Source: a virus
Direction: 5' to 3' (one strand)
IMG/VR virus record: IMGVR_UViG_3300022602_000058
Coordinates: 26,085 to 90,084 of that record
Length of the DNA stretch: 64,000 nucleotides
The notes beneath the pieces were generated by a model that was given only the letters and a program-made list of their open reading frames with translations, was not told the DNA's origin and searched no databases. The translations under genes and the position numbers were made by a program. Positions 25,857-63,329 of the stretch are shown piece after piece. How positions within the stretch are numbered: position 1 is the first letter of the stretch; every line of letters starts with the position of its first letter.

Positions 25857-28800
25857 ATGGCCGAGACCTTACAATTTATAGATGAAAGACTCAGCAATTC
25901 GATTACCGCTATTGTACCGACTGATAAGCCTGTAGATAGATTACAACCGCTAACATTTACCGATTGGTTGTCATATAATACAAAGCTATTTACAACAACT
26001 AATGAATTTTTAAATAGATATCAATCTTATCTCAATAATTGGTATGCAGCAAAAGGAGCTAATGTAAAACAGGCATCTGCCGGAATACAAACATACTACA
26101 CTAATTTAATAAACGAAATTGTTATTAGTTACACATCTGCAGACGAGCAGCGTTACTTACAAAATATTGATGTAACAAATCCACGAGATCTCGCTATCGT
26201 TGTACCTTTTATATCACAGAAGATTAAGGATATTTGCATATATTATAGTAATCTACGTGACGACGTTAAAACAGCGTCAACGCAGTATAACTTAAAAGGT
26301 TCAAATATCGGTATAGAGAACTTACTATATGTTAACATTATAAAGGCGCTTAAAACGCAGAATTTAAGTACCACTCTTAATACGTTAAATCTTTCTCTTT
26401 CTACTATCAGTAATAATCTCATTATAGACATCGAAGATCTATTTGATACATATACTGACTATTATGATATTAGCCCAACAGCACCCGCATCAGCGTACAA
26501 CGTCAATAAAGGCGCTAGAAAGGATTATTTTAGTTTAAATCAAAACAATATTGACCCGTATCTGTATCTTAATATTAATCAGAGCGTATTAAATGCAATT
26601 CTTTCATATCCATTTTATACAATTGAATTTGGTACCAATAACTTTACTATTGATCCTTTAGTAAACTCAAGCCAATTAAATTTTCTTAAAGATCGTGATT
26701 TTACTTCTACAGTTAATGACGGTGATGTAAATAATCTTAATTTACAAATTCAGAGCCAGGAAATTACAAAGTATATTGGAGCTGATTTTTATTATATCGC
26801 GACAGGTAGTACACAGACAGCCTATACTTCAGGTTTGCTCTTTAAATCAAATAGCGAGTACGCTAACGTTTTAAATAAACGATACCCAAGTATTGCTGCT
26901 GTACCTAGTGAGGAATTTTTAAAAACAGGTAAAGAGATTGGTTTGTTTTTTAAACCAGATAAAATCGGTTTGATTAATTTTACAAATTTTAACTTTACTG
27001 CAACAATTGATCTAACCAAGCTACAACCTAATACGGTATATTACTTCCCGGATCCATCAAAATATGGTAATATATCTGGCAATACTAAACTTGACTTTCA
27101 ATCACCGGTAACGTTTTTTGAAAATAATTATTTCAATAAAATTGATTACTCTAATCAATATATGTTTGGTGATGTAGTAAGTGATCCGTATTATCAGACA
27201 TTTCGTGCCTATCAATCACGTGAACAAACTCTAAACTATTCTAATTTCGGTGTTCAACGATATACAGATTCACAAGATTTCTTTAAAGGAGATCAAGATG
27301 CAATATGGAGTAACGTTGACGTATATCCAATAACACCGTATGGTGAATATCCATTAAATGAGAGAACAGAGGCGTTATTACCGATTAATAAAACACTTGT
27401 TCAATATAAGAGTGACGTATATGGTAATCAGTATGGTCTTTATAAATCAGCTGTTAATAAACAATTTGGCTCGATTGTACCTTCACATATTATTAATGAT
27501 GTTGTATTTGATGGGTATGTGTTTAATTTAACAGCAGTAGATATAAACTGGCCAGGTTGGTATAAAGCTAAAGGTAATGTTGAGAATGTTAAATATATGA
27601 CGCTTGGCTCAACATTGAGCTATTCAGGTGTTGCGTTTAAAACAAGTATTACCGAATCAGTAGATACTACTTACGGTACACCTATTACATCAAACAATAA
27701 TACAACATTTAATACACTGTACGACTATTACGGTGAACTAATCTACAGTAATATATATGTTGATAATAACGGCTCATTTCTTGACGGTGGCGATGCAATC
27801 GTGCTAGAATCATATGATTTTTCAACCAACGATACAACACATAATGGGTTTGGCGGGTATTTAGCCACATATACCTGTAGTATAAGAGATGCGGAGTCAT
27901 TTATTAGTCCGCTTACAGCATTTCTTCCTGATTCACCAAGCGATCAAGCCGGCTTTAACATTGCTGATTCATCACTCTATTATAACACACTAGCAGATGC
28001 GTCACCGCAACCAAATGGGCCTAACGCAGTTGCAACATTCTTAGATCAGGCTCATTTCTATACAAATAATACTACAAATAATTATATAACCGAAACATAT
28101 GACTGTAATGTATTCATTGATTCAAACAACGTTAACCCATGCCCAGTAGTCGGTGCATTAAGCGGTATACACGATACAATAATATATACATATTCATACA
28201 CTGAGCCTACTAACTTCGAAAATATAAGACTATCAAATACTGATACAGTTTTAGATTTCTCTCTTACTGGTGTTAATACAACAAAGAATTCTATCTATTA
28301 TACACGCAATGTAGAGTATGGTGATTTCTATTTTAGAAACGCAAGCAATACATTCATCGGACCAATTTCTTCATCTTTAAGTGCCGTATTTGTAAATTTC
28401 TCACCAGCTGTAAGTGCAGAGCTAACGAATAGTGTTATTAATTTTGACATGTACTATGATACACTACAAATAGAAACAGAAAACTATTTAGTGTTTAATA
28501 AGCTTGTTTATGATTTTGATACCAATCAAGTACTAGGCACAACAAATCTTTATTCAGTAATAGAACGTGGTGATTCACCTGAAGTAGAGAAATTCTCAAC
28601 AGTTTGGTTGGATGAAAGAGAAAATACTCTTATTGCTGCTAAAACAACATTACTGCAAGGTAATTTAAGTGCTACTAATTACAAAGTAATCTACCCTACA
28701 ATTTATAAGACTGATTTAGTAACAGGTCAAACAATTCAAGTATACCCTGCTAAACCAGCAAATACCTTAACGTTTGCCGAGCTCAGTGCTTTCTCTCTAC

Positions 28801-39790: not shown

Positions 39791-40060
39791 TTATTCTTCT
39801 TCTATCTTATATCTATTTGTATTTTCAAATCTATTTGCTACAAATACTTCAAAAGCTTCTAGAATATCCTCTTCAAATTGAACTTGGTCCTGTTCATCAA
39901 CCATATCAACAACACAATCTAAGATTGCTGTCATAAAGCCAGCTATCTGAGTACTTCTCAAGCTATCATCATAATCTAGAGTCTTTATTGCAGGGTTACC
40001 TTTATACATCCCTACAACGAAAACAGGGACAAAGTCTTCATCGTTTGCTTTATTGCTCAT
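39791..40060 (-). CDS. Unknown acidic protein
   Basis: 89 residues, acidic: FVPVFVVGMYKGNPAIKTLD, then FMTAILDCVVDMVDEQDQVQFEEDILEAF. No family recognised. Its start overlaps the 43-residue gene upstream by 11 bases. The stop is just before the promoter region of the phosphoesterase gene (39.75 kb). Confidence 0.6.
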   Translation of the reverse strand: MSNKANDEDFVPVFVVGMYKGNPAIKTLDYDDSLRSTQIAGFMTAILDCVVDMVDEQDQVQFEEDILEAFEVFVANRFENTNRYKIEEE

Positions 40061-42878: not shown

Positions 42879-44738
42879 TTACTTTTTAAGAGATTGAACT
42901 TCTGCTTTAAGTTCTTTAATAGCCTGAAGAAGAAGTGGTATTATCTTATCGTAATTAACTGCTTTATACCCATCATTGCGTGTAACAACTGCTTCAGGTA
43001 AAACTTGTTCAATTTCCTGTGCTATAACACCAACATCATGACCGGTATGAACAGTTTGAAGTTCAGTATTCCAATCATATTCAACACCGTTTATACTTTC
43101 AATCTTATCTAATGCCGATGTAATTGGTTGTATATTATTCTTTAATTGTCTGTCAGAAGAAGCAAAAGCAATAATATCACCATCAGCACTAATTGTACTA
43201 GTAGCATGAATTGTACCAGTTACGTCAAGTGTTGTAGCTGGAGTTACTGTGTTAATACCAACACAGTGAGTATTATTATTATCAACAAACATTGTAGTAA
43301 CAGTATTTGAATTATCTTGAAAATACGTACCGCCTGTTGCCGGTCGAAGAGCAAGATTAGTACTATCACCGTAAATGTAACCCGTACCACCGAGGTAGAT
43401 ATTATTACTATCAACCTTTAAATTACCATTAACTTCTAATTTCTGGGATGGTGATGATGTACCAATACCAACATTTCCACCGTTAATAGCTGTAGTTATA
43501 TTACCAGATTGATCGATCTTTAAGCGGTTAGTACCAGAACCAAGTACGTTAGTCCAAATATTGAACGTATTATCCGTCTCTTTTGTAATTGTAAACCCTT
43601 GTCCATTGACATTGTTACCTAATTGTAATGCAGCGTAATTTAACGCATTAATCTGTAGGTTACCTACTGGTGATGATGTACCGATACCAACACTACCACC
43701 GAATATCGTAGTACCTGAAGCACTAATTGTACCGAGTACTGATAATTGTACGTTAGGATTTGTTGGGGGTATTACACCAATACCTACACTACCGTAGTTA
43801 TCTACGTAGAAAGATTGAGGTATTGTGCGATTTGTATCTTGTATAACTAGAGAGGGACCTGAGCCTACTTGTTTTATTGAAACGGCCGGTAGAGCATTAT
43901 TAGTTGGTATAAATGTAACCGTTGACTGACCATCGCCAACATTTGTTAGTGTACCGCCTGATAGGTATAAAAATCTATTCGAGATATAAGCGTTAGTACC
44001 TGCGCGAGAATTATAAATTGATTGATCAACATATAATTTGTTTGTTAGATCACTATTATTAACAGGCAACGTACTTACACTAACACTTGTCGTACTACTT
44101 AGTGTACCGAAAACCGTTGCTACCCCGCTCAACGGTACATAGTTATTACCTACATAGTTTCTTGTATATGTTTCTGCTGTTCGGACACCAGAAAGTAATG
44201 CATTAAGATTAACAATATCTATTAAATTAACTGGGTCACTAAGGATAGTACCGCTATTAACACTTATTGAGCTGACATTAAGTGTGTATGAGGTAATATT
44301 ATTTTTAATATTAAGTGAGGAGGTAGTAGGATCTGTACCAGTATCTAAAGTAAGATAAAGAGGATTAAAAATTAATTGACCTGTTGTATAATCAAAAGGA
44401 GAGCCATAAACAGGATGTATATTAGTCCATCCATTAATCTTACTAAAGGAATATAGCTTATTATCAGCGTTACCGTTAGCATCAAAATTTTGAAACGCAA
44501 GATCACCGTTATACGCTAAAGATGAATACTGATCTCTATTATTAACAACACCAAAATTAGTATTACCTACGAGTATACCGCCTTGGGTAACACCGTCACC
44601 TATAAAAAGACGCTTTGTATCAACAGTGTAGCCAAGTTCGCCAGAATAAAAAGTAATATTCTGTCTATCTAAATCAGTACCACGCCTGATAATAATCTTA
44701 ACTACTGTATCTGATGTAACATTAATAGTGTTGGCCAT
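42879..44738 (-). CDS. Tail fibre with C-terminal endosialidase-type chaperone (S74)
   Basis: 619 residues. Start: IIIRRGTDLDRQNITFYSGELGYTVDTKRLFIGDGVTQGG (about 12-50), the common phage fibre attachment module. Middle has repeating beta modules (VGIGTSSPSQKLEVNGNLKV, GGTGYIYGDSTNLALRPATGG). The end (527-619) is the intramolecular chaperone: SSDRQLKNNI, with Ser-Asp the self-cleavage position, GVIAQEIEQVLPEAV, and a final coiled coil. It trimerises the fibre and is then cut off. TAAATA 6 bases before the ATG. Confidence 0.88.
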   Translation of the reverse strand: MANTINVTSDTVVKIIIRRGTDLDRQNITFYSGELGYTVDTKRLFIGDGVTQGGILVGNTNFGVVNNRDQYSSLAYNGDLAFQNFDANGNADNKLYSFSKINGWTNIHPVYGSPFDYTTGQLIFNPLYLTLDTGTDPTTSSLNIKNNITSYTLNVSSISVNSGTILSDPVNLIDIVNLNALLSGVRTAETYTRNYVGNNYVPLSGVATVFGTLSSTTSVSVSTLPVNNSDLTNKLYVDQSIYNSRAGTNAYISNRFLYLSGGTLTNVGDGQSTVTFIPTNNALPAVSIKQVGSGPSLVIQDTNRTIPQSFYVDNYGSVGIGVIPPTNPNVQLSVLGTISASGTTIFGGSVGIGTSSPVGNLQINALNYAALQLGNNVNGQGFTITKETDNTFNIWTNVLGSGTNRLKIDQSGNITTAINGGNVGIGTSSPSQKLEVNGNLKVDSNNIYLGGTGYIYGDSTNLALRPATGGTYFQDNSNTVTTMFVDNNNTHCVGINTVTPATTLDVTGTIHATSTISADGDIIAFASSDRQLKNNIQPITSALDKIESINGVEYDWNTELQTVHTGHDVGVIAQEIEQVLPEAVVTRNDGYKAVNYDKIIPLLLQAIKELKAEVQSLKK

Positions 44739-51892: not shown

Positions 51893-52312
51893 TTACATGA
51901 AAAACACATAAACATCATCACCTACAATAGAAGTTGACATATGTTTAAATCCAAACTTTGATTCGTTAATACCCTTTACAAAGTCCGGCCATTCCTTAAT
52001 AGATGTTTTAGCCACTTTTCCTGAAATATCTGCAGGTAAAACTTTATTGAAGATTGCTTCAATATGTTGTAGTATATTACTTTTAATTGCAAAATCATAT
52101 AATAGTGATCCAACATCTTGCTTATGTATTGATACGTATGTGGATATTACGTTTCTACAACTACAATTTGCATTAGATGAGGCACTTTCAATATCTGCAG
52201 CAATAGAAGGTGCAGCTTCCTTAAAAAGTGCTTTAAAACCAGAGTCAATAGTTATTACTTGTAATATAACATTACCTAATAACGTTGAATCTATAAAATC
52301 CTGCTTTGTCAT
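51893..52312 (-). CDS. Unknown small protein
   Basis: 139 residues, helical (TLLGNVILQVITIDSGFKALFKEAAPSIAADIESASSN) with cysteines in SNANCSCRNVIS. No family recognised. Starts 3 bases after the next upstream gene's stop and has no own late promoter, so it is co-transcribed with it. Confidence 0.55.
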   Translation of the reverse strand: MTKQDFIDSTLLGNVILQVITIDSGFKALFKEAAPSIAADIESASSNANCSCRNVISTYVSIHKQDVGSLLYDFAIKSNILQHIEAIFNKVLPADISGKVAKTSIKEWPDFVKGINESKFGFKHMSTSIVGDDVYVFFM

Positions 52313-52315
52313 ATA

Positions 52316-52627
52316 TTAATTTATAAAATTAACTGACTGTGTTCCAGTTTTTTTCTTATAAAGAAAAGCTGCAAATAAATGAGCTACAAGCCCACAAAAA
52401 ATATTTGTAAGAAGTGGAATTTTAATATCTAGATATATTGGATTATATAAAAATGATGTAAGCAGTCCAAACCAAAATGACGCACATTCCGGGCATTGTA
52501 ACGGTACTCTTATATAAGGAATATATGAAATCTTATTACGTACCGGTTTAAAGATATCAGAAAAACTATACATATATGATACGCTTAAGCTTAAGCATAT
52601 AAAATATAGTAAATTTAAAAAATACAT
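52316..52627 (-). CDS. Membrane protein with CPxC-FW motif (DUF1360-like)
   Basis: 103 residues. Three likely membrane spans: about 4-22, 49-62 and 72-90. Between them QCPECASFWFGLL resembles the 'C-P-x-C-x-x-F-W-x-G' motif of small membrane proteins of the DUF1360 type, found in phages and bacteria. A role in the virion is unlikely; perhaps a membrane-modifying protein. One-base overlap with the next gene. Confidence 0.55.
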   Translation of the reverse strand: MYFLNLLYFICLSLSVSYMYSFSDIFKPVRNKISYIPYIRVPLQCPECASFWFGLLTSFLYNPIYLDIKIPLLTNIFCGLVAHLFAAFLYKKKTGTQSVNFIN

Positions 52628-53028
52628 TATACCACAAATTTAACCTGCCCGGTAGGTGTCGAAATAACAGCAGGTGTACCTGGATTTGGTGACGAAACAA
52701 CCACAGAGAAGGTACTGTACGGTAATGCTTCAGGTGTCAACGATACTGTAACAGGTATATTGAGACTGTCATTAGCTGCTGCAATTATATTGCTATAGTC
52801 AGTAGATTCGGTTGCGATTATTTTCTGAACAACTGGGTATATAAGCTTTGCAACCTGTGTATTAAAATCTTGAGTTGGATCAAATATTGATAAATCGTAA
52901 CTATACGCAGGATATTGATCTGGAGCATTTTTAAATAATGGTGAATGTGGTCTAATAACAATTTGACCTGTTTCCTCATTAATTGAATCAATAATAAAGC
53001 TTACATCTGCTACAGAAGGGGTACTCAT
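52627..53028 (-). CDS. Small fibre-region protein
   Basis: 133 residues, beta-rich: IIDSINEETGQIVIRPHSPLFK, SVVVSSPNPGTPAVISTPTGQVKFVV. May be a fibre tip or hinge protein. TAAATA lies 9 bases before the ATG and overlaps the end of the upstream adhesin gene. Unknown. Confidence 0.6.
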   Translation of the reverse strand: MSTPSVADVSFIIDSINEETGQIVIRPHSPLFKNAPDQYPAYSYDLSIFDPTQDFNTQVAKLIYPVVQKIIATESTDYSNIIAAANDSLNIPVTVSLTPEALPYSTFSVVVSSPNPGTPAVISTPTGQVKFVV

Positions 53029-53037
53029 AATATATGT

Positions 53038-53043
53038 TATTTA
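53038..53043 (-). promoter_or_regulatory. Late-type promoter
   Basis: AATAAATAACATATATT then ATG on the minus strand; spacer 9. It overlaps the stop codon of the adhesin gene. Confidence 0.6.
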
Positions 53044-53907
53044 TTTCAGAAGTCCTAAAACGCTACCTGTATTCGTAAAGCTTGCAACATAGATCGTACC
53101 ATCTAAATAGTACCCCGGTGATCCACCCTTTCCACCGGCACTAGTATATCCTCTCTGACCGGCCTGACCATTAGAACCCGGTCCACCAAAAGTACCACCT
53201 TGACCACCGTACCCGCCGTAATTAACACCGGGATTTATCGCACCTGCAGCTTGATTATATCCTTGACCAAGACTACCAGCTGATCCATTAGCATCTAAAC
53301 TTCCACCATAGAAACATTGATATGATGGGTTAACCCCTGGGCAAAAAGCACACGCACAGCAATTCTGCCCACCGCACCCACCACATGAATCACCACCACA
53401 GCTTCCACCGCCACCGCCACCGCCGCCGCCGCTGTAAATATTTCCCGTATTAATTATTGTACAAACATTTTGTAATAAAATTACATCACCACCATTACCA
53501 CCAGCGCTACCTGCAGTCTGTGATAAAGGTGTACAGCAGCCACCAGCACCACAACAACCTGTATACGCACACCCCGACACGCCACCGGCACCACCACGTA
53601 CACCACCGGCACCCTGCAAAGAACCATTATTTGTGAGTGTAATTCTATCTCTGGTTGGATGAAAATTTGCTATAGTAATTACAGGCTTAGTAGGATCAGA
53701 TGAACCCACAACAACGCCGTTATTAATAATTATGCGTAGGTTTAAACTAGCATTTACACTTTTGATTATATTTTGACTAATGAGATACGATCTTATATCA
53801 AAAGCTTTGCCTGGTTGTAGAGTTGTAGTATCAACACTACTTGTAAATGTGTATGTTATAGTTGCACCAGAATCAGCTGTTGTACCAATAATGTTAGGAA
53901 TTGACAT
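53041..53907 (-). CDS. Glycine- and cysteine-rich adhesin (gp38-type)
   Basis: 288 residues. The N-terminal 80 residues are beta-type (ATITYTFTSSVDTTTLQPGKAFDIRSY). After that are Gly-rich runs (GGVRGGAGGVSG, SAGGNGGDV, GGGGGGGGGSCGGDSCGG, GGQGGTFGGPGSNGQ), the layout of T2/S16-type gp38 adhesins with polyglycine-II bundles and variable loops. Unusually, it holds 14 cysteines, 8 within 31 residues. It directly follows a long fibre gene (8-base gap), like gp37-gp38 in T4-like phages. Confidence 0.7.
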   Translation of the reverse strand: MSIPNIIGTTADSGATITYTFTSSVDTTTLQPGKAFDIRSYLISQNIIKSVNASLNLRIIINNGVVVGSSDPTKPVITIANFHPTRDRITLTNNGSLQGAGGVRGGAGGVSGCAYTGCCGAGGCCTPLSQTAGSAGGNGGDVILLQNVCTIINTGNIYSGGGGGGGGGSCGGDSCGGCGGQNCCACAFCPGVNPSYQCFYGGSLDANGSAGSLGQGYNQAAGAINPGVNYGGYGGQGGTFGGPGSNGQAGQRGYTSAGGKGGSPGYYLDGTIYVASFTNTGSVLGLLK

Positions 53908-53914
53908 AAGAATT

Positions 53915-56491
53915 TTATGCTAAATCACCGAATAATACCCAACCGAATGTGCTATTCCACGTTAAAGTGGCAGCAGAGTATCTAGCTGATAATTTAGTTA
54001 GACTATAAGCCTGATTAATAGTACCGCCGGTGAATGTAACATCTCCTGTATTTGTTCTAATAATAGTTACCTGAAAACCGTTTCTCACTGTAGCACCAGC
54101 GATCGTAACATTATGTGCTGCAGTACTATTCATATAAATTGTACCACCACAATCACTATCAAGAACAGTGTAATCAGCATCTGTAACAGTCTTTGTTGGA
54201 GCCCCCGCAGATGTCGTACCACTAGAATTAATATTACCAGTTGCATTAATACTACCACTAGAATTAATATTACCAGTTGCATTAATACTACCACTAGAAT
54301 TAATATTACCAGTTGCATTAATACTACCATTAACGTCTAAGGCTTGTGCAGGATTTGTGTTATTAATACCGACACGATTGTTGGTATTACTATCAACGTA
54401 TAATGTTGTTGTAGACCCTGCATTATTCTGAAAGAATGTTCCGCCACCTGTAGGCGGTCTAAGAGCTAAATTACTACCATCACCATAATAATATCCTGTA
54501 CCACCGACAATGACTCTACCACCATCGACTTGTATGTTACCATTAACTTCTAATTTCTGTGCTGGGCTAGGTGTACCGATACCCACATTGCCATTTGAGG
54601 CAATACGCATACGTTCTAAACTATTTACACCATCCCAGAAATAAAGATTATTATCACCTGCTGCGCCTATATCCGTACCTATTTCAAAAGATGGATTATA
54701 ATTTTTTTGGAATTGAATTGTATTTTTCCACTGACTACCGATTGTATTATTTAGATATAATATTGGTTGACCGCTATTTCTAATTACACCATTACCAACA
54801 ACCTCAAGAGATTGACTAGGTGATAGCGTACCTACACCAACATTACCGTTACTTGATATGTACATTGCACTTAGTTGAGGATTACCTACTGTAAATAATG
54901 TATTACCGTTTGAAACAACGTTAAGTAGTGCAGGTGATATACCAAATCCGTAACTACCAACACTAGTTCCTGAATCAAATAAACGAATTGTGTTTGTCTG
55001 ACCAGGTGCACCAACAGTCGATGTACCAAAGGAAAGTGGCGCACCAGGTGTAGTTGTACCAATACCTACATTGCCACCACTTGTATATGATAATACATTA
55101 CCAGCGGTATTATCATATAAATTAGTAACATCGCCGTTTCTATAGAAAGCACTAGAACGTCCATTTCCGTTTCTATCATAGGCTGTAAAGCTACCATTTG
55201 TACTACAAGCATTAAATCCATTATTTGCTGCTATACTGCCACCTGCTGTTATACTACCTGGTGCACTTAAATTATTAACGTACGTGTAGTTAACTTGTGA
55301 TGCACTTAAATTTGATCCAAGAATAAAGGTATTTTGGTATCCTTTAGTATCATTAGCAGATCCACCTGCAACAAATGAATAATTGCTAGAAGCAGTATTG
55401 CATAAGCCACCAGTAACAACAGAGCGTACACCAGAAGCTGTATTACATTTTCCACCACCAATAAACGCACTACTATTACTTGCAACATTTGTATAACCTG
55501 CTGCAATAGCAGCATTATATCCACTAGCAATATTTGCCGTACCACCACCAATAGAAGCACCGTAACCTGATGCTGTATTACAAACGCCACCAGCAACATT
55601 TGAATAAAAACTTGTAGCACGGTTACTGAAACCACCTGTAACGTTACTATAGTTACCAGATGCTGTGTTGCAGGTACCTCCTAAAACACTTGAATAATAT
55701 CCTGAAGCAGTATTAAAATTACCGCCACCGACATTAGAGGCTGAGCCTGTTGCAGTATTGGTACCATGTGCTGGTATAATTGATGAAACAGGGGCATTGT
55801 ATGTATAGGTAAGATATGAAAAGGAACTAACAACATTATAGGCAGTTTGCCAGTTACCACTATTAGCGGACATCGTTGAATATGTACTCTGCCAAATACC
55901 ACTATTGGCTGTAAGATTAGAATAAGAATTTGTCCATGCAGCGCTATTTGATGTAAGGTTTAAATAACTACTCGTCCAACTAGCACTATTAGCTAGGGAA
56001 TTAACATAAACACTATTCCATTGATCACTATTACCTGCACTTGTAAAGACAGAATTTGTCGAAGAAAGATTATTTACTAATGTAAAACCTGTTATTGATG
56101 CGGTAATATTTGAACCAAGAATAAACGAATTATTACCTGTTAATGTATTATTAATACCACCAAGGATTCCAGAATAATTACTAGATAGATAAATGGTATT
56201 TGTACCGATATTATACGCCGGTATTGCTATTGTCGTAGTACCAGGAACTAGAATGAGTGGGTAGGAGCTAACAGGGTTATTAAGAGTAAAAACAGGTGTT
56301 GATGGCCATAGACTATCATTAATCTTTGGACCATAATATAAACCTGTATTTGAATCTACATAAAAATCTGCTGATAGTCCAAGAAAATTACTTGGAGGGC
56401 CTGCTGAAACATATATAATACTACCTCTATTACCTGTACATAAAGCGGTAATGGCTGGGACGTTTAGTGAAAGTGTAGCTGCAATGGCCAT
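53915..56491 (-). CDS. Long tail fibre with YadA-head-type repeats
   Basis: 858 residues, TAAATA 9 bases before ATG. About 90-230 is helical/spacer (SASWTSSYLNLTSNSAAWTN). About 250-400 has repeats of the form G-G-x-x-N-T-A-S-G-x-Y-S-x-V (GGNFNTASGYYSSVLGG, GGTCNTASGNYSNV), like YadA/Hep_Hag beta-roll units, capped by NTFILGSNLSAS. Then fibre beta modules (VGIGTTTPG, GGTGYYYGDGSNLALRPPTGG), three tandem 12-residue units (GSINATGNINSS) and a C-terminal knob. No chaperone at the end; the next gene is the adhesin. Confidence 0.75.
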   Translation of the reverse strand: MAIAATLSLNVPAITALCTGNRGSIIYVSAGPPSNFLGLSADFYVDSNTGLYYGPKINDSLWPSTPVFTLNNPVSSYPLILVPGTTTIAIPAYNIGTNTIYLSSNYSGILGGINNTLTGNNSFILGSNITASITGFTLVNNLSSTNSVFTSAGNSDQWNSVYVNSLANSASWTSSYLNLTSNSAAWTNSYSNLTANSGIWQSTYSTMSANSGNWQTAYNVVSSFSYLTYTYNAPVSSIIPAHGTNTATGSASNVGGGNFNTASGYYSSVLGGTCNTASGNYSNVTGGFSNRATSFYSNVAGGVCNTASGYGASIGGGTANIASGYNAAIAAGYTNVASNSSAFIGGGKCNTASGVRSVVTGGLCNTASSNYSFVAGGSANDTKGYQNTFILGSNLSASQVNYTYVNNLSAPGSITAGGSIAANNGFNACSTNGSFTAYDRNGNGRSSAFYRNGDVTNLYDNTAGNVLSYTSGGNVGIGTTTPGAPLSFGTSTVGAPGQTNTIRLFDSGTSVGSYGFGISPALLNVVSNGNTLFTVGNPQLSAMYISSNGNVGVGTLSPSQSLEVVGNGVIRNSGQPILYLNNTIGSQWKNTIQFQKNYNPSFEIGTDIGAAGDNNLYFWDGVNSLERMRIASNGNVGIGTPSPAQKLEVNGNIQVDGGRVIVGGTGYYYGDGSNLALRPPTGGGTFFQNNAGSTTTLYVDSNTNNRVGINNTNPAQALDVNGSINATGNINSSGSINATGNINSSGSINATGNINSSGTTSAGAPTKTVTDADYTVLDSDCGGTIYMNSTAAHNVTIAGATVRNGFQVTIIRTNTGDVTFTGGTINQAYSLTKLSARYSAATLTWNSTFGWVLFGDLA
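54218..54325 (-). repeat. Three tandem 36-bp units in fibre gene
   Basis: Three exact tandem copies of a 36-bp unit (54218-54253, 54254-54289, 54290-54325), each coding for the 12 residues GSINATGNINSS in the long fibre. An in-frame change in copy number would change shaft length. Confidence 0.9.
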
Positions 56492-56500
56492 GTCTATGAT

Positions 56501-56506
56501 TATTTA
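56501..56506 (-). promoter_or_regulatory. Late-type promoter of long fibre gene
   Basis: AATAAATAATCATAGAC then ATG on the minus strand; spacer 9. Confidence 0.65.
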
Positions 56507-56534
56507 TTCCTTAGTATTTGTTTTTTAAACAATA

Positions 56535-57563
56535 CTAGGCGTGTAGTGTTACGTTAACATAACGGTCACCTGACGTGTAAGGCGCACCAGGATCAGCTGG
56601 TTCAACCTCAATGAGCGGCTGACCTGCTGTAACTACAGGATTTACTGTCGTATGGTTGTCGTAATTATTTAAAATATTAAGTGTATCGTATGAGTAGAAG
56701 ATACCACCTGGATTAACGTATGTAAGCGTAGCATTAGCTGATAATGATGGGCTGTTTATATCATATGTATAGGTATCTTGTGAAGCGTATGTAGTAAACG
56801 CACCGTTTATATTAAAATTTCTAATTTTAAAGATTGTATCTGCTACCTCACCGGTTGAAAACCCTATACCACATCTAACTGTTGGTGTATAATTAACAGG
56901 TGTACTGCTCAACGGAACACCATTTATAGTTACAGCTGTACTTGATAATAACGAGTTATTATAATTTGTAAAGCTATAGTCTAGATAATTTGTAAAAATT
57001 AGATCATTAGGTGATTTAATATCTACAATAACTCGTTGCCCGAAATCTGTTAATCTTACACGAATACGCTTAAAATCTGGTGTTTGACCGGCCGTTATTT
57101 GTTGATATAGACTAACATTTTTAGGATAAGCACGGTTATTTAAATTTAAAGTGTTAGTAATAAAGTCAAAATCATTATCTGAGTTAGAACGTAAGGCAAT
57201 GGAATTTGGTGTAATACTATCTAGGCCCGATTTAAAAAAAGTATTGTTACCGAAATTACCTGATATATCAAACCCTACACCCAGTCTACCGCCTTGTAAT
57301 CCCTTGCTGTTATTGCTATCGTATATAGGTATACCTGTTGCATCAACATTATAAACTGAACTATATGCTAACCCTGGACCGGGCCCGCCACCCTGGGCGT
57401 TAGGTGCAGAGGTATCATAGAAGAAAACACAAAAACCTTCACTACCGTTCATACTAGGTCCATAACATGCGTAATCAAAAGATACAACTATATCTTTAGT
57501 TATATCCAAATACCGTTGAAACGTAACTGAACCAGCGACTGTATTTGGTGGTAAAATATACAT
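56535..57563 (-). CDS. Lectin-like adhesin
   Basis: 342 residues with a likely L-type lectin domain in the first 230: DIVVSFDYACYGPSMNGSEGFCVFFYDT, GPGPGLAY, and GGRLGVGFDISGNFGNN, a pattern of legume-lectin-like jelly rolls ('G-x-x-V-x-F-D-x'). The C-terminal 100 residues form another beta region (SLSANATLTYVNPGG). It follows the YadA-type short fibre gene after 14 bases. Probably sugar binding on the host surface. Confidence 0.65.
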   Translation of the reverse strand: MYILPPNTVAGSVTFQRYLDITKDIVVSFDYACYGPSMNGSEGFCVFFYDTSAPNAQGGGPGPGLAYSSVYNVDATGIPIYDSNNSKGLQGGRLGVGFDISGNFGNNTFFKSGLDSITPNSIALRSNSDNDFDFITNTLNLNNRAYPKNVSLYQQITAGQTPDFKRIRVRLTDFGQRVIVDIKSPNDLIFTNYLDYSFTNYNNSLLSSTAVTINGVPLSSTPVNYTPTVRCGIGFSTGEVADTIFKIRNFNINGAFTTYASQDTYTYDINSPSLSANATLTYVNPGGIFYSYDTLNILNNYDNHTTVNPVVTAGQPLIEVEPADPGAPYTSGDRYVNVTLHA

Positions 57564-57577
57564 AGATTTAAACTATG

Positions 57578-58306
57578 TTAACTTGTATAAATGGGAATAT
57601 ATCCAAGTAAAACTCCTGACGAATTATAGATCGGAAATTTATTAGTAATAGTACCGTTTGTTGGTGTACCGACAACATTACCGATCCAAAGAGCACTTGT
57701 CGATGTCACACCTGTCGAGCTAATGTTATTAACATATGTGTAATTAGTTCGACTTGCACTTAACCCGGTACCAAGAATAAAAGTATTTGCATTACCGTTG
57801 TCTGTATTATTATAGCCGTTAGCAATGAAGGAATATCTACCCGACGCTGTATTTGTCTTACCGTTAAGTATACTAGAATAATATCCTGAGGCAGTATTAT
57901 TACTACCTATACCAATAAAATTTGTTCCGCTTAGTGCTGTATTATTCTGACCGCCTATAATAGTGGAAAATGATGTATTTGTTACATTACACTGACCGCC
58001 GATAATATTTGTAAATGGACCATTTGCGGTATTACAGAAACCGTTACCTATAAAAGAATTAGAACCTGAAACTGTAACTGTATTACAGCATCCACCAGAA
58101 ATATTTGAATATGCACCAATAGCGTTATTACTATTAATTACCGGTTGAACTGTACTAATACCCGAGCCAGCTTTGTATACATTAGTACTGTTAATAATGG
58201 CATATACATCTTGCCCGCCAGATAGAAATTTACCTGCTGTACTTATATCAGATTTTGCACTAAATGTACCGGTAGTAGTTGTATTATCAAGAAAATTAAG
58301 TGACAT
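57578..58306 (-). CDS. Short fibre with YadA-head-type repeats
   Basis: 242 residues. GGQDVYAIIN motif near 31 and then repeats of N-T-A/x-S-G-x-Y-S (GSNNTASGYYSSILNG, GKTNTASGRYSFI) and the cap NTFILGTGLSASRTNYTYVNNIS, shared with the long fibres. Two CC pairs in the repeat (GGCCNTV). TAAATA 12 bases before ATG. Looks like a short fibre or an accessory module that joins other fibre parts. Confidence 0.7.
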   Translation of the reverse strand: MSLNFLDNTTTTGTFSAKSDISTAGKFLSGGQDVYAIINSTNVYKAGSGISTVQPVINSNNAIGAYSNISGGCCNTVTVSGSNSFIGNGFCNTANGPFTNIIGGQCNVTNTSFSTIIGGQNNTALSGTNFIGIGSNNTASGYYSSILNGKTNTASGRYSFIANGYNNTDNGNANTFILGTGLSASRTNYTYVNNISSTGVTSTSALWIGNVVGTPTNGTITNKFPIYNSSGVLLGYIPIYTS

Positions 58307-58318
58307 ATAATATAATAG

Positions 58319-58324
58319 TATTTA
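58319..58324 (-). promoter_or_regulatory. Late-type promoter
   Basis: GATAAATACTATTAT, almost the extended T4 late consensus, then ATG 12 bases after the hexamer on the minus strand. Confidence 0.7.
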
Positions 58325-58361
58325 TCAACCAGTCCTTTATATTAATAGAGGTATTCATAAA

Positions 58362-59561
58362 CTATTGAGTAGGCCCGACAGGTGCATTACCAGTTATACT
58401 ACCATTTATAAAATTTTTACCTATAATAGAATATCCCGGGTTTTGCTTACTACTATCACTACCTGGCCCGCCAGCTAGAACACCATTATTTATTATAGTT
58501 GTCAAGCTTGTGAGTGTGAGAGCAGGTCCTCCTGGTAGATCTGGTGTATACGATATTGAAGCGCCACCATCGTCACCACCCTTACCGAATCCACTATTCC
58601 AATTATTATCATTTACACCACCGCCGTCACCGCCCTTACCACCGCCACTACCTGAGCTACCGCCACTACCATTTACACCACCACCACCCCCCCCACCGGG
58701 TGTAGCAATATTGGTACCGTTAACACTTATGTAACCACCGCTACCTGATGTACCACCCTTTGCTGCAACACCTCGCTTACCACCAGATCCAGCGTCTCCG
58801 CCACCACCACCTGCACCACCACCAAACTTCACAATATCACCAGCCTTTACTGCAACAGTACCACTTGCACTGCTTCCTCTACCACCACTACCACCTGCCT
58901 TTTGACCAGCGTCACCAGGGCCTCCACCTGCTCCACCACCTCCACCACCGGCGACAAAATAACTAATTGATGTTTGACCTTCATTTACTGTAATTGTACC
59001 GCTTCCACTATAACTCTTAACCGGTGTCTTATTGGTAGCCCCAATTATTGTACCATTATTAACAAGTTGTAATGTTGTATACTGATTGAACGATGATAAT
59101 CCATTTGAACTCGTTCCCATGATAATTGCTGGTGAGCTTACAGATGTTGAGCCGACAACACTGTTATTTGTTAGAATAATGACAAATGGTATGTTTGGCT
59201 CAGTTAAGCTATGACCATAGTTTTGTCGAGCGTAGGTACTGGCATTATCAAAAACGTTATAGTTGTTAACAGGTGTAGTTATTGCAAGTAAAATAGGAAA
59301 TGCAAAACGTTTACCATGAAAAGGATCAAAATTGATTCTTTTAGTTATTGAAATAGGAAGTGATGGATTAGATGGTGTTACAGTTTGCTGTAATGCCAGC
59401 GATGAACCACCAGGTGTATATGTTTTAAATAAATCACCATAATATGTATCTACTGCAACACGCGAACCATCAGAGTATGACTGATACAAATACAAAGCGT
59501 CAGCTATAGCCTGTAGTGATAATGGACCACTAGAAGGTAGTGAATTAATATTATTAGGCAT
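58362..59561 (-). CDS. Glycine-rich adhesin (gp38-type)
   Basis: 399 residues. N-terminal 200 residues are a beta-domain (KRINFDPFHGKRFAFPILLA, EPNIPFVIILTN). From about 205 are Gly-rich runs (AGGGGGGAGGGPGDAG, GGSGGRGSSASG, GGAGGGGGDAGSGG, GGGGGGGVNGSGG) ended by a beta segment, GGPALTLTSLTTIINNG. Like the adhesin of gp37/38 pairs; it follows the fibre of 59577-62003 after 15 bases. Contains a C8/G8 homopolymer tract (58687-58694) in the Gly codons. TAAATA 9 bases before ATG. Confidence 0.7.
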   Translation of the reverse strand: MPNNINSLPSSGPLSLQAIADALYLYQSYSDGSRVAVDTYYGDLFKTYTPGGSSLALQQTVTPSNPSLPISITKRINFDPFHGKRFAFPILLAITTPVNNYNVFDNASTYARQNYGHSLTEPNIPFVIILTNNSVVGSTSVSSPAIIMGTSSNGLSSFNQYTTLQLVNNGTIIGATNKTPVKSYSGSGTITVNEGQTSISYFVAGGGGGGAGGGPGDAGQKAGGSGGRGSSASGTVAVKAGDIVKFGGGAGGGGGDAGSGGKRGVAAKGGTSGSGGYISVNGTNIATPGGGGGGGVNGSGGSSGSGGGKGGDGGGVNDNNWNSGFGKGGDDGGASISYTPDLPGGPALTLTSLTTIINNGVLAGGPGSDSSKQNPGYSIIGKNFINGSITGNAPVGPTQ

Positions 59562-59570
59562 AGTCCTAAT

Positions 59571-59576
59571 TATTTA
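59571..59576 (-). promoter_or_regulatory. Late-type promoter of Gly-rich adhesin gene
   Basis: AATAAATAATTAGGACT then ATG on the minus strand; spacer 9. It sits in the 15-base gap after the fibre gene's stop. Confidence 0.65.
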
Positions 59577-62003
59577 TTAAAAGCCTACAATTGATATATT
59601 ATATGCTGTTAATACCGGTACAAACGAGAAGTTTACTTGAATGCTTGATAAATTAGGCACAATAATCGTTGGATAAACAATTTGATTTGTACTGTTGTCA
59701 ATAACCGTTGTAAAGACGTTTTTAGTGCTTAAGTTATGATTAACAGTAAAGCTTGAAACAGTACCATTACCGAGTGTAGAAGAATATCTATTACCAGGTA
59801 ATATTGCAAAATTTGGTGAACTTAAAGTACCATATACTGTCTGATTCCCGTTAATAATGCTATTGTTTGCAACACTTGTTCCGTTTACAATTGAGCAACG
59901 TGAAACTGAACAATAAGCACTTAGTGCACCGTTTGCAAAGATTGTATTACTAGCACTAAGATTTGACACACAGAGATTAGTTGAACAAATATTACCGCTG
60001 GCAATAATATTATTCACATATGTATAACCTGAATAGGTAGCAGTTATATTTGTACCTAAAATAAAAGCACCACTCACACCAGGCGTTATAGTATTATTAC
60101 ATCCACCGGCGATGTAATTGTAATAACTTGTATTACTATTAATTGTGTTACAAACACCACCGATAATACTACTATAGGTACCGGAATTTGTATTCTTATA
60201 ACCACCAACAACAATTGAAGCTGATCCTGTAACTGAATTTGTACAACCACCACCGATAAAACCATAGGCACAAACAGTATTATTATTACCACCTAGTACA
60301 CTACCATAAACAGAATAGGTCGTATTATTTGAACCACCACCTATTATCGAGCCACTACCATTTGCAGTATTTCTATAACCACCAACAATACTACTATAAA
60401 CACTGCTTGTTGTATTGTTAAAACCACCACCTACCGTACTACCGTTATTTGTTGTTAAGTTGTTACAACCGCCAGTAATAACGGAATAATTACCTGACGC
60501 TGTATTATTACCATTGGTAGGGCGTATAGTACCAGTACCTGCACCCGGACTATAGAGAGTATTTTGATAATACAGATTTCCTGAAGCTGAAATATCACCA
60601 ACTACTGTCAAGCTTGATGATGGGTTCATACTTCCAATACCGACATTGCCGTTGGAAGTAATACGAACACGCTCATTACTTGCAAGAGTCCCACCGGTAT
60701 GGAAGAGAATATTTGCATTAGCTGCTGTACCAATAGCGAGGTTTTTACTCTGTGTGTAAAGATATGCATCGCCTGCACCAGTTATACCATAACCAGGTGC
60801 AGCGTAGGTACTACTATTAATACCAGCGTTGAGATAGTTTTGTGTATCAGTACCATTATCAGCTGTAATAACTATATCCGAGGAAGCATATATACCGCTA
60901 TTGGTGTTTTGTACATTTACCTGTGCGTAGCAATTGGTATTAGCAAAAAACTGACCAATAGTATTAGGCAATGTTGTACCTGATACACCGACACTTAAGA
61001 AGGTTGGAAAGGCATTCGCTGAATATACGTACCCTTGCGACGATAGGTTATTTACGAATGCATAATTTGATAGATTTGATGTAATACTTGATCCTAATGC
61101 AAAGGAATTACTACCAGATAGACTGTTGTTTGTACCACCAAGAATAGAAGAATAATTTCCTAAAACATTATTATTTGTACCGTTTAATATGCTTGAATAA
61201 CAACCTGAGGATGTATTAACACTACCACCTACAACTAAAGCGCTGTAGTTCGACGCTGTATTAAAGAGGCCAGCTAATACAGCTGAATAACCGCTTAAAG
61301 CGCGGTTACCAACATTTGATGCAATAGAGGATATATTTGAATTGAATGTATATGGCTGGGATGAAATCTTACTAAAAACTGTTTGGTTATATGAATAAGT
61401 TGAAGTTGCACTATTAGCTGTAACAAAACTATATACAGCGTTTATTTCATTCCAACTCGCACTATTAGCGCATACCGCTGTATATGATGTGTTCCAGTTA
61501 GCACTATTTGCTACTAGAGTTGTAAGTGATAATTTGCCACCGTACCATAAACCGCTATTACCTGATACTGTTGTATAGGTGGAATTCCAATTTTTACTAT
61601 CAATACCAGAAAGTGAACCAACTACTGAAACACCGTTAAAGAATGTTGTATTACCGGAGAGTGTATTTTCAATTACGGCAGGAGCCGGTGTATTTAAATT
61701 ACCTACTAAAGTTACCGGTATTGCATATTGAATGCCGGATAGCTGGACAATAAGAGAGCTTGTAGGGTTAAATCCAATAGTTGCTGAGAGTACAGGAACT
61801 GGTATACTAATATTTGAAAGTGTATTAAATGCTGTATTGAGGGCACCAGTTGCGTTAATATTACCTACAACATTAAAATCACCAATAAACGGTTCAGCAG
61901 CTGAAGCGATCGGATCAGTAGCTGAATCAGGGTAACCAGCGGTAGGCAGGGTATGGTGATTCTTTCTATGAAGCTTATTATGGAACCGGGCGTTGTCAGA
62001 CAT
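59577..62003 (-). CDS. Long tail fibre with YadA-head-type repeats
   Basis: 808 residues, TAAATA 12 bases before ATG. Starts RFHNKLHRKNHHTLPTAGYPDSATDPIASAAEPFIGDFNVVGNI, an attachment-type N-terminus. Two repeat regions: about 235-300 and 480-620 (GGCNNLTTNNGSTVGGGFNN, GGYRNTANGSGSIIGGGSNN), with caps SFALGSSITSN and AFILGTNITATY. A VGIGSMNPSSSL fibre module lies between. C-terminus beta-type (VNHNLSTKNVFTTVID). Paired with the adhesin downstream. Confidence 0.75.
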   Translation of the reverse strand: MSDNARFHNKLHRKNHHTLPTAGYPDSATDPIASAAEPFIGDFNVVGNINATGALNTAFNTLSNISIPVPVLSATIGFNPTSSLIVQLSGIQYAIPVTLVGNLNTPAPAVIENTLSGNTTFFNGVSVVGSLSGIDSKNWNSTYTTVSGNSGLWYGGKLSLTTLVANSANWNTSYTAVCANSASWNEINAVYSFVTANSATSTYSYNQTVFSKISSQPYTFNSNISSIASNVGNRALSGYSAVLAGLFNTASNYSALVVGGSVNTSSGCYSSILNGTNNNVLGNYSSILGGTNNSLSGSNSFALGSSITSNLSNYAFVNNLSSQGYVYSANAFPTFLSVGVSGTTLPNTIGQFFANTNCYAQVNVQNTNSGIYASSDIVITADNGTDTQNYLNAGINSSTYAAPGYGITGAGDAYLYTQSKNLAIGTAANANILFHTGGTLASNERVRITSNGNVGIGSMNPSSSLTVVGDISASGNLYYQNTLYSPGAGTGTIRPTNGNNTASGNYSVITGGCNNLTTNNGSTVGGGFNNTTSSVYSSIVGGYRNTANGSGSIIGGGSNNTTYSVYGSVLGGNNNTVCAYGFIGGGCTNSVTGSASIVVGGYKNTNSGTYSSIIGGVCNTINSNTSYYNYIAGGCNNTITPGVSGAFILGTNITATYSGYTYVNNIIASGNICSTNLCVSNLSASNTIFANGALSAYCSVSRCSIVNGTSVANNSIINGNQTVYGTLSSPNFAILPGNRYSSTLGNGTVSSFTVNHNLSTKNVFTTVIDNSTNQIVYPTIIVPNLSSIQVNFSFVPVLTAYNISIVGF

Positions 62004-62015
62004 GATGTTTAAGAT

Positions 62016-62021
62016 TATTTA
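62016..62021 (-). promoter_or_regulatory. Late-type promoter of long fibre gene
   Basis: AATAAATAATCTTAAACATC then ATG on the minus strand; spacer 12. Confidence 0.6.
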
Positions 62022-62071
62022 TTGATAAATCCTTAAAATAGTAAGGGCTAGAATACTTAATAATGAAAGAT

Positions 62072-62077
62072 TAAATA
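62072..62077 (+). promoter_or_regulatory. Late-type promoter before a small frame
   Basis: ATTAAATATATAC then GTG at 62083; spacer 5. A GTGTCT/AGACAC hairpin starts at that GTG. Confidence 0.45.
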
Positions 62078-62082
62078 TATAC

Positions 62083-62160
62083 GTGTCTATGAGACACAAA
62101 TATGAGATTGATTTTATCAGCTCTCTGTTATATGTTCCCTACGTATATAGAGAATCTTAG
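62083..62160 (+). CDS. Possible very small gene, 25 residues
   Basis: GTG start (MSMRHKYEIDFISSLLYVPY...) placed 5 bases after TAAATA, the same geometry as the confirmed late genes. The start overlaps a GTGTCT-ATG-AGACAC hairpin (62083-62097). It may instead be a non-coding or decoy start. Confidence 0.25.
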   Translation: MSMRHKYEIDFISSLLYVPYVYRES

Positions 62161-62200
62161 AGAAGACGTACGTTATATTTTGAGAAAGAATAAATATTAA
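62102..62200 (+). CDS. Possible very small gene, 32 residues, alternative frame
   Basis: ATG at 62102 reads MRLILSALCYMFPTYIENLR and on to RKNKY, ending in TAA 1 base before the next GTG. The frame holds a hydrophobic N-terminus. It overlaps the other small reading frame; only one, if any, is real. Confidence 0.2.
   Translation: MRLILSALCYMFPTYIENLREDVRYILRKNKY
62191..62196 (+). promoter_or_regulatory. Late-type promoter of membrane/coiled-coil gene
   Basis: AATAAATATTAAC then GTG; spacer 5. It decides the GTG start. Confidence 0.7.
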
Positions 62201-62201
62201 C

Positions 62202-63329
62202 GTGGAGTTTTTAAAGAAAATATTTCAGCGAGAAGCTGTTACAGAAAATACTGTTATACCACAGTATCATACTATTTTTGGTTTTACGACTAATAATAAT
62301 ATAGCTGCTACAGCTATTGATATTGTATATTGGTTTATTATTTTTGTAGCGTATTGTTTTGCCTTTCACGCACTTAATGTAATTCTTATTAGCTGGAACT
62401 GGATATTGATCGCATTGGCAAGCTTTGCTGTAGTTGGTTTACCGTATTGTGTTAAGATTATTTTATTCGGTAGAAAACAATTTCCTTTTAAGGCAGCTAT
62501 ATTGAGCTTATTTTTAAGTCTTTTACCAACGATCTTTGATTTTGCAGGTTTGTATTCTGAAACCGGTGTACAGGATAGTTTAAAAGATAGCAAAGTTCAA
62601 ATTACAGATACACTATCTTATTTTGAAGCAGAAAGCAAAAAAGCCGTACAACAACAACAGCTTGAAATTAATAATGAAGGTAGAGATAAGAAAGCAGAAG
62701 TAGAAAAAGCTGTTTTGACCAAAACAACAACACTCAAACAACAGGTAGAGGACGCCAATCAAGAGGTAATTGACGAGCGTCAAGGGGTAAAGGGAAAGGC
62801 CGGTGACGGTCCAAGGACTAAAGAGCTTCAATCTCAGGTTCGTAAACTTCAAGCACAATCCGATATTGAGTTGCAGTCGTCAAAAGCTGAGCTTAAAAAG
62901 CAAGACGATACAATCGATCAAGAGGTGGCAGAAAAACTTCAAGCTCTTGAAAAATCAAACAAACTATTAGGTGATAAAATTATCACGTGTAAGAAAGCTA
63001 TTAATGAAACAACGAACTTTAAAGAATTAGAAATTTCTGTTATTGAGGCTAATAGCCTCATTTCATCAATTGCATCAACATTAAACACGAAATTTGTACC
63101 AATAAAAATTTTAGGAACGGATAATATTATTAAAGTATCATTTACAGCTCTAACTAATGCCGATATTACAGCTCTAGTATGCTTTCTTTTAGCTTTTCTT
63201 ATGGAGATAGGTGATATTATTATTGTCTACACTATGCGTTATGAGAAGAAAGTTTCCATACCTCTTATCAAGAAAGAAGATGAGTTTGTACACCGTGTTA
63301 AGTACACGAAGACATACGAAGGGTATTAA
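62202..63329 (+). CDS. Membrane protein with coiled coil
   Basis: 375 residues, GTG start 5 bases after TAAATA. Three membrane helices near the N-terminus (about 40-62, 65-88, 95-116), a long charged coiled coil (about 125-270: EAESKKAVQQQQLEINNEGR, LQSQVRKLQAQSDIELQ), and a C-terminal helix about 322-343. Topology suggests a structural membrane or virion-associated protein or host-membrane effector. No family recognised. Stop shares TTAA with the convergent gene. Confidence 0.6.
   Translation: MEFLKKIFQREAVTENTVIPQYHTIFGFTTNNNIAATAIDIVYWFIIFVAYCFAFHALNVILISWNWILIALASFAVVGLPYCVKIILFGRKQFPFKAAILSLFLSLLPTIFDFAGLYSETGVQDSLKDSKVQITDTLSYFEAESKKAVQQQQLEINNEGRDKKAEVEKAVLTKTTTLKQQVEDANQEVIDERQGVKGKAGDGPRTKELQSQVRKLQAQSDIELQSSKAELKKQDDTIDQEVAEKLQALEKSNKLLGDKIITCKKAINETTNFKELEISVIEANSLISSIASTLNTKFVPIKILGTDNIIKVSFTALTNADITALVCFLLAFLMEIGDIIIVYTMRYEKKVSIPLIKKEDEFVHRVKYTKTYEGY

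Follow-up and report, generated by a model that had tools for sequence, protein, structure and literature searches.

Two long-fibre genes, with glycine-rich proteins of two types encoded directly behind them, as candidate exchangeable tip-plus-adhesin cassettes in an uncultured phage

Does a phage with two long fibre genes, each trailed by a gene for a glycine-rich protein, carry two receptor-binding systems at once? The question is raised by a fibre locus in a 64,000-nt stretch of viral DNA (the window), positions 26,085 to 90,084 of the 90,084-base IMG/VR virus record IMGVR_UViG_3300022602_000058. The locus encodes two long fibres, FIB1 and FIB2, each followed by a putative adhesin (adhesin 1 and adhesin 2), with a short fibre and a lectin-like gene between the two pairs (Table 1). 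We read the pairs as cassettes of fibre tip plus adhesin that can be exchanged on conserved anchors, two being present at once in the window, and put the probability of this reading at roughly 0.68.

Two pairs on YadA-type shafts

FIB1, adhesin 1, FIB2 and adhesin 2 are complete minus-strand open reading frames (ORFs) at the coordinates first noted, and in both pairs the order of transcription is fibre, then adhesin, the same as in gp37–gp38. The first-pass annotation had described two pairs of long fibre and glycine-rich adhesin separated by 8–15 bases; the pairs hold up, with intact ORFs and measured gaps of 15 bases between FIB1 and adhesin 1 and 7 bases between FIB2 and adhesin 2.

That annotation had also assigned YadA-type repeats to both long fibres, which several comparisons confirm. 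A head-type motif occurs 9 times in FIB1 and 8 times in FIB2, against at most 5 times in 1000 shuffles of each, and the cap motif FILGxxxxAxxxxxxxVNN, absent from 1000 shuffles of each protein, is present once in FIB1, twice in FIB2 and once in the short fibre. FIB1 matches the solved UspA1 head (3pr7) over two stretches (E 4e-10) as well as two Bdellovibrio fibre proteins, Bd2133 (8OND; whole-protein E 1e-4, best single stretch 0.23) and Bd1334 (8OML; E 1e-3). With composition correction off, FIB1, FIB2 and the short fibre are mutually similar (short fibre to FIB1: 34% identity, 245 columns, E 2e-36), and it is on this similarity to FIB1 that the repeat assignment of FIB2 and the short fibre rests. 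The short fibre has only 2 head-type motifs, where shuffles reach 3, yet it carries the cap motif and resembles FIB1. Pfam is silent on the shafts: FIB1 and FIB2 had no match above cut-off, the head-repeat family included, even when listed to E 10, where FIB1 drew a single unrelated domain of unknown function (E 6.4).

Two sets of bacterial proteins thus share features with these shafts. The likeness to the UspA1/YadA autotransporters lies in the repeat type; the window differs in that the Pfam YadA families, including the C-terminal membrane anchor, went unmatched in FIB1 and FIB2, and in that the genes sit in a phage structural locus. The mosaic adhesive trimers of Bdellovibrio, matched by FIB1, are reported to combine a β-helix shaft with a varied tip (PMC10769870), a plan in common with the window, but they are bacterial surface fibres whose tips belong to the fibre polypeptide itself and are not made from another gene. 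The small C-terminal domain of FIB1 matches phrog_8309 (E 8e-8) and virion proteins of AR9/PBS1. In Bacillus phage AR9 the virion protein with this domain (L103, 4332–5210) is encoded directly 5′ of a tail spike gene.

Adhesin 2 is predicted to share the gp38 fold

In the reported crystal structure of S16 gp38, a β-helix bears two glycine-rich extensions that form a polyglycine sandwich, while three tryptophans in a helical bundle at the N terminus grip gp37 (PMC6851490). Adhesin 2 appears, from its predicted model, to have a gp38-type β-helix plus extensions without the gp38 helical bundle.

First, a profile comparison of the adhesin 2 family (alignment A8, three sequences) with gp38 (A7, seven sequences) gave a probability of 91 and an E value of 9e-7. 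In a control run the probability was 88; it was at least 50 in 0/100 column shuffles and 2/100 ten-column block shuffles (maximum 54.5), and below 4 for all six other proteins from the downstream slot, four of them glycine-rich.

Second, in the AlphaFold2 (AF2) model two glycine-rich stretches separate strands, consistent with a central β-helix and two extensions. The well-modelled part is residues 11–100 (predicted local distance difference test (pLDDT) 71–81 by ten-residue block). The composition of adhesin 2 is compatible with a polyglycine II sandwich, but residues 103–137 and 163–275 are modelled at pLDDT below 50. VIA-align placed S16 gp38 (6f45_D) first among the 42 chains that were re-ranked (Z 12.9, 163 residues, root-mean-square deviation 3.3, 24% identity) and PP01 gp38 second (Z 12.3), the third row being an unrelated protein at 6.8. 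Eleven BFVD entries matched at E ≤ 0.001, three of them named gp38.

Sequence searches were less telling. Pfam returned no family for adhesin 2 at E ≤ 1, the gp38 model included, pairwise BLASTP against S16 gp38 or adhesin 1 gave nothing significant, and phmmer against the PDB matched neither adhesin. A tblastn search of named phages with both adhesins and one adhesin 2 relative found none, a result that the low-complexity filter may have affected. Viral contigs scanned with single adhesin sequences yielded no relatives; a scan with alignments found three, one already in the set, another alignment scan added none, and no adhesin 2 relative was found in the genome contigs scanned.

The attachment region is where the two families part. 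No N-terminal tryptophan helical bundle for gp37 docking was found in adhesin 2 or its homologues: the first 60 residues hold no tryptophan in 3/3 adhesin 2 homologues, against 3–5 in six of the seven gp38 proteins (0 in the seventh), and the structural match begins at gp38 residue 44. The C-terminal part of S16 gp37 (597 aa) resembles none of FIB1, FIB2 and the short fibre (best blastp E 0.18). Across two adhesin 2 comparisons, identity is 19–32% in the loops, 41–50% in the scaffold and 53–70% at the N terminus. The loops are also rich in cysteine: the window adhesin 2 has 14, of which 13 fall in glycine-rich loops, and its two homologues 8 and 15, against 1–4 in the seven gp38 proteins.

The window thus shares with S16 gp37–gp38 (6F45) and PP01 gp38 (9V85) an adhesin gene directly after the fibre gene on the same strand (7 bases apart here, 27 in S16) and, in adhesin 2, the β-helix arrangement, glycine-rich extensions and variable loops; its phage also lies in the wider T4-like group. 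It differs in its YadA-type repeats, its two pairs and its cysteine-rich loops. With no tryptophan bundle and with fibres unlike S16 gp37, the locus is therefore regarded as gp37–gp38-like in its working and is not assigned to that system. Of the likeness to gp37–gp38 first proposed, the predicted fold of adhesin 2 stands; the attachment domain and the partner fibre do not fit, and neither does adhesin 1, which is of a different glycine-rich type. That adhesin 2 is attached to FIB2 is, in our judgement, quite probable.

Adhesin 1 carries a predicted Pam3-type domain

According to its model, adhesin 1 is another glycine-rich type than adhesin 2. Mean pLDDT is 49, with 52–81 by ten-residue block over residues 181–290. 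Residues 179–342 match the Pam3 tail fibre (7ypx) with Z 12.5 over 148 residues at 28% identity, the Bxb1 tail tip (9d93) with Z 12.2 and the glycine-rich region of ALK with Z of about 8, pointing to a Pam3-type fold. Adhesin 1 as a gp38 member was rejected: its profile had no gp38 match, and the weak structural match does not count as evidence.

Pfam found no match in the window adhesin 1, PF21722 (Gly_rich_2) included. Two complete relatives pass that model (46.7 and 36.8 bits, cut-off 24.3), but their best stretches (143–304 and 158–374) are an extra glycine-rich domain that alignment A6 shows to be missing from the window protein; because these matches sit in another domain, the case for adhesin 1 rests on the predicted fold. 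The known counterpart is Pam3 gp24 (7YPX/7YFW; Pfam Gly_rich_2), reported to be a stand-alone trimeric tail fibre (PMC9608196). In adhesin 1 the domain is flanked by other segments and encoded behind a long fibre gene, whereas Pam3 gp24 is itself the fibre. Just 5′ of one adhesin 1 homologue lie two opposite-strand genes (L031, 5022–6643, minus strand), transferase-like by eye.

The Pam3 likeness suggests an alternative, in which adhesin 1, and perhaps adhesin 2 too, is a short fibre in its own right with an anchor elsewhere, as Pam3 gp24 has at the baseplate, and merely adjoins the long fibre in the gene order. Adhesin 1 brings a conserved N-terminal part of its own and a glycine-rich domain like that of the stand-alone fibre, one of four adhesin 1 loci has no neighbouring fibre, and one FIB1 with the same tip lacks adhesin 1. 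Two observations speak against this alternative, which we hold to be unlikely: tip type and the presence of an extra gene are associated, and three distinct adhesin 1 loci lie behind the same tip type. We lean slightly towards adhesin 1 being attached to FIB1, again as a judgement.

Chaperone genes often lie directly 3′ of fibre genes. The downstream proteins could then be chaperones of fibre folding, of which T4 gp38 and Tfa are examples, and be absent from the finished virion. T4 gp38 is reported to be such a case (PMC6851490), and in two relatives the next gene encodes a non-glycine-rich protein of 160–166 aa, itself a chaperone candidate. Adhesin 2, however, resembles S16 and PP01 gp38, both of the adhesin type and reported to be located on the fibre tip, and the adhesin 1 domain matches structural proteins (the Pam3 fibre and the Bxb1 tail tip), so that we give the chaperone explanation very little weight.

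Tip type is associated with an extra downstream gene in relatives

If tip and adhesin form a unit, the tip of a fibre would be expected to go with the gene behind it. Scanning viral contigs produced many loci, several of which share a single contig. Relatives follow a plan of FIB1, variable genes, the lectin-like gene, FIB2, variable genes and a gene like the 577-aa one of the window; in some contigs FIB1 is located elsewhere. The fibre C termini fall into few tip types. An extra downstream gene follows none of five fibres with a GYIPIY tip and 13 of 14 with other tips (Fisher p 5e-4), in a count that set aside duplicate and truncated fibres, those in which head repeats numbered fewer than two, and genes picked by their neighbour. 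Adding one FIB1 with a variant N terminus gives 13/15 (p 0.0014), and one low-repeat FIB2 besides gives 13/16 (p 0.0028); the fibres compared are related and hence not independent, and the p-values are therefore optimistic.

Among the 13 extra genes, adhesin 1 accounts for three and adhesin 2 for two; three more encode different glycine-rich proteins, and the remaining five are none of these. Where the upstream gene is visible, adhesin 2 loci follow a FIB2-type tip (3/3), and 3/4 distinct adhesin 1 loci follow a FIB1-type tip. The clearest sign, at the level of sequence, that tip and adhesin may move together comes from one locus (L098), in which the last ~95 residues of a 363-aa fibre match FIB2 (43%, E 2e-17) with no other significant segment, and an adhesin 2 homologue lies 6 bases 3′ of the fibre gene. 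By reading, the genes that follow resemble the 133-, 103- and 139-aa genes of the window, and the fibre adjoins capsid-type genes. A functional link between fibre tip and adhesin draws support from two sides: tip type and extra gene are associated, and this adhesin 2 homologue lies behind the same tip on an otherwise different fibre.

Several observations, in addition to the relatedness of the fibres, weigh against the cassette reading. On the structural side, the adhesin 2 model has a mean pLDDT of 51 and is poor in its glycine-rich part, the VIA-align ranking covers only the small re-ranked set, Foldseek alone puts PP01 gp38 first but at E 0.024, and adhesin 1 resembles gp38 weakly (Z 3.4 over residues 88–395; profile probability below 5). 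Among the relatives, 8 of the 13 extra genes encode neither adhesin 1 nor adhesin 2, and 5 of these 8 are not glycine-rich; the fourth adhesin 1 homologue (10157_000240) has no adjoining fibre gene; and neither a WVLFGD-type tip (27777_000164) nor two other non-GYIPIY fibres (10885_072082) are followed by an extra gene. The FIB1 of 33993_003190, with the tip type of the window, is followed by a short-fibre-type gene. A Ruegeria phage encodes a protein that has the FIB2 tip domain, and the gene behind it is a hypothetical one of 170 aa. Low-repeat FIB2 genes, outside the count, mostly lack an extra gene: in 06128, 19776, 34062/34092, 44644 and 08448 the next gene is the backbone gene or one starting like it. 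Low-repeat FIB1 genes, likewise outside the count, are followed by a glycine-rich gene (19776_000961), a 160-aa gene (34101/34062) or a 339-aa gene (43775_004301). The matching of tip and adhesin is not strict.

Where both downstream slots are visible, none is filled in 27741_000087, one in 25435_000016 and two in the window and in 25723_000026, the second extra gene of the latter not being glycine-rich. Relatives with no or one filled slot would fit an explanation in which a single pair is used at a time, or one pair is a remnant, leaving one working receptor system. In the window, however, every gene of the locus is open, they share one strand with little space between them, and the N-terminal anchors of both fibres are conserved. 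An invertible switch at the fibre locus was considered and rejected: inverted repeats in 52300–62300 are short and poor (the longest 31 nt at 71%, among the best 25 of 29 pairs), and a switch is therefore not evident. A single working system thus seems improbable, and the presence of both adhesins on one virion likely, as a judgement.

Two further genes of the variable regions deserve mention. Two genes 3′ of FIB1, in the region of the adhesin slot, one relative encodes a 400-aa RCC1-repeat protein (L009, 12306–13508; E 2e-62), and in another the extra gene behind FIB1 joins a laminin-G-like domain to Gly_rich_2 (L020, 14524–16107).

The short fibre and the lectin-like gene

The first-pass annotation had proposed the short fibre and the lectin-like gene as a third pair, which the relatives contradict. 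Regardless of what lies upstream, the gene that comes after the lectin-like one is of FIB2 type in 26 of 29 cases (the exceptions being 02092_001858, 28581_003812 and 22200_006318), a sample that includes the window, counts near-identical contigs apart and leaves out loci L040 and L054–L060. With so steady a FIB2 neighbour and a varying upstream gene, the third pair is thus a positional coincidence, and we rejected it. The lectin-like protein had no Pfam match and no clear PDB match, no lectin-family profile matched in seven members, and a distant relative (L052) reached an L-type lectin model at E 0.1, far under cut-off. In L048 (9128–10987) a Gly_rich_2 domain (E 1e-15) forms the N-terminal end of a fusion with the lectin-like protein.

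The last 95 aa of the short fibre share 52–62% identity with the C-terminal end of FIB1 from three other phages; because these three carry the short-fibre tip of the window on FIB1 itself, the comparison suggests that the tip of FIB1 may have been replaced and the old tip retained on a separate short fibre. In L010 (14749–16701) the short fibre itself ends in a glycine-rich region, in appearance a fibre–adhesin fusion.

A model of two parallel fibres

On the cassette reading, the phage would bear two long tail fibres, probably trimers, each held by a conserved N-terminal anchor of its own and each paired with an adhesin from the next gene. Their shafts carry YadA/UspA1-head-like repeats, FIB1 also having stretches like the Bdellovibrio fibre proteins, and the small C-terminal tip domain of each probably holds the separately made adhesin: FIB2 would carry adhesin 2, with its gp38-like β-helix and glycine-rich loops, and FIB1 adhesin 1, with its Pam3-type domain. 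The most likely working would run from shaft to tip domain to adhesin to receptor in two parallel fibres, with receptor contact through variable loops. Tip domain and adhesin gene would form a cassette, replaceable by a self-sufficient GYIPIY tip that needs no adhesin; the short fibre would be a third unit with such a tip, and the lectin-like gene would belong with FIB2. Trimerization, tip attachment, virion presence and receptor binding are what we infer from these comparisons.

More tentatively, and at somewhat less than even odds, the locus may exemplify a socket-and-plug system of uncultured T4-like phages, in which a C-terminal socket on different shafts takes a gp38-fold or other adhesin; the short plug would be residues 1–36 of adhesin 2, unlike the tryptophan bundle of T-even gp38. 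If so, socket and adhesin move as one cassette between unrelated shafts, which would allow one virion several independently evolving receptor-binding heads.

Several receptor-binding proteins on one phage are also reported for Ackermannviridae tail spikes and phiKp24. Those are branched complexes, as opposed to parallel fibres each with a tip adhesin. In the open-access literature, covered in part, we found no report of two structural adhesin types on YadA-type shafts, of a phage tail fibre with a YadA head or β-roll, or of a gp38 with glycine-rich motifs from an uncultured phage; among the matches listed, no title or start of an abstract announced gp37/gp38 in two copies. The locus would widen the range of the gp38 adhesin fold to a remote phage lineage whose shafts and attachment region are different, and it offers two adhesin types for comparison. 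In relatives the fibres are kept while the following gene is swapped, gained or lost, a new twist on a known route of host choice, and tip plus adhesin as an exchangeable unit suggests a testable rule for finding host-recognition genes in metagenomic phages.

Features and setting of the locus

Table 1. Genes of the fibre locus, in positions of the window
Feature	Position	Strand	Description
FIB1	59577..62003	-	808 aa; conserved N terminus MSDNARFHNKLHRKNHH, YadA-head-like repeats, small C-terminal domain 739–806
Adhesin 1	58362..59561	-	399 aa, 22% Gly; conserved N-terminal part and glycine-rich domain ~179–342, predicted Pam3-fibre-like
Short fibre	57578..58306	-	242 aa; GYIPIY tip
Lectin-like protein	56535..57563	-	342 aa; constant FIB2 neighbour; lectin label putative
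FIB2	53915..56491	-	858 aa; N terminus IAATLSLNVPAITALC, YadA-head-like repeats, C-terminal tip domain ending WVLFGDLA
Adhesin 2	53041..53907	-	288 aa, 24% Gly; predicted gp38-type β-helix, two glycine-rich extensions, cysteine-rich loops, different N terminus
133-aa protein	52627..53028	-	Similar gene behind the adhesin 2 homologue in L098 (sequences compared by reading)

The 90,084-base record may be a fragment. Proteins encoded in the window include a terminase, a tail sheath, baseplate proteins and a gp44-type clamp loader whose top named matches are Synechococcus T4-like phages (~40% identity), and the phage is therefore taken as a deep-branching T4-like myophage. A nucleotide search of window positions 40000–64000 against a phage collection gave no match, Rfam and tRNA searches of the window found nothing, and an NCBIfam search with nine proteins returned no match. 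Elsewhere in the window (42879–44738, minus strand) lies another fibre-type protein, with Mtd_N at its start and a Peptidase_S74 chaperone at its end. Directly adjoining the fibre locus on the opposite strand (62202–63329, plus strand), a gene encodes a 375-aa protein that has 54–83% identity in nine relatives.

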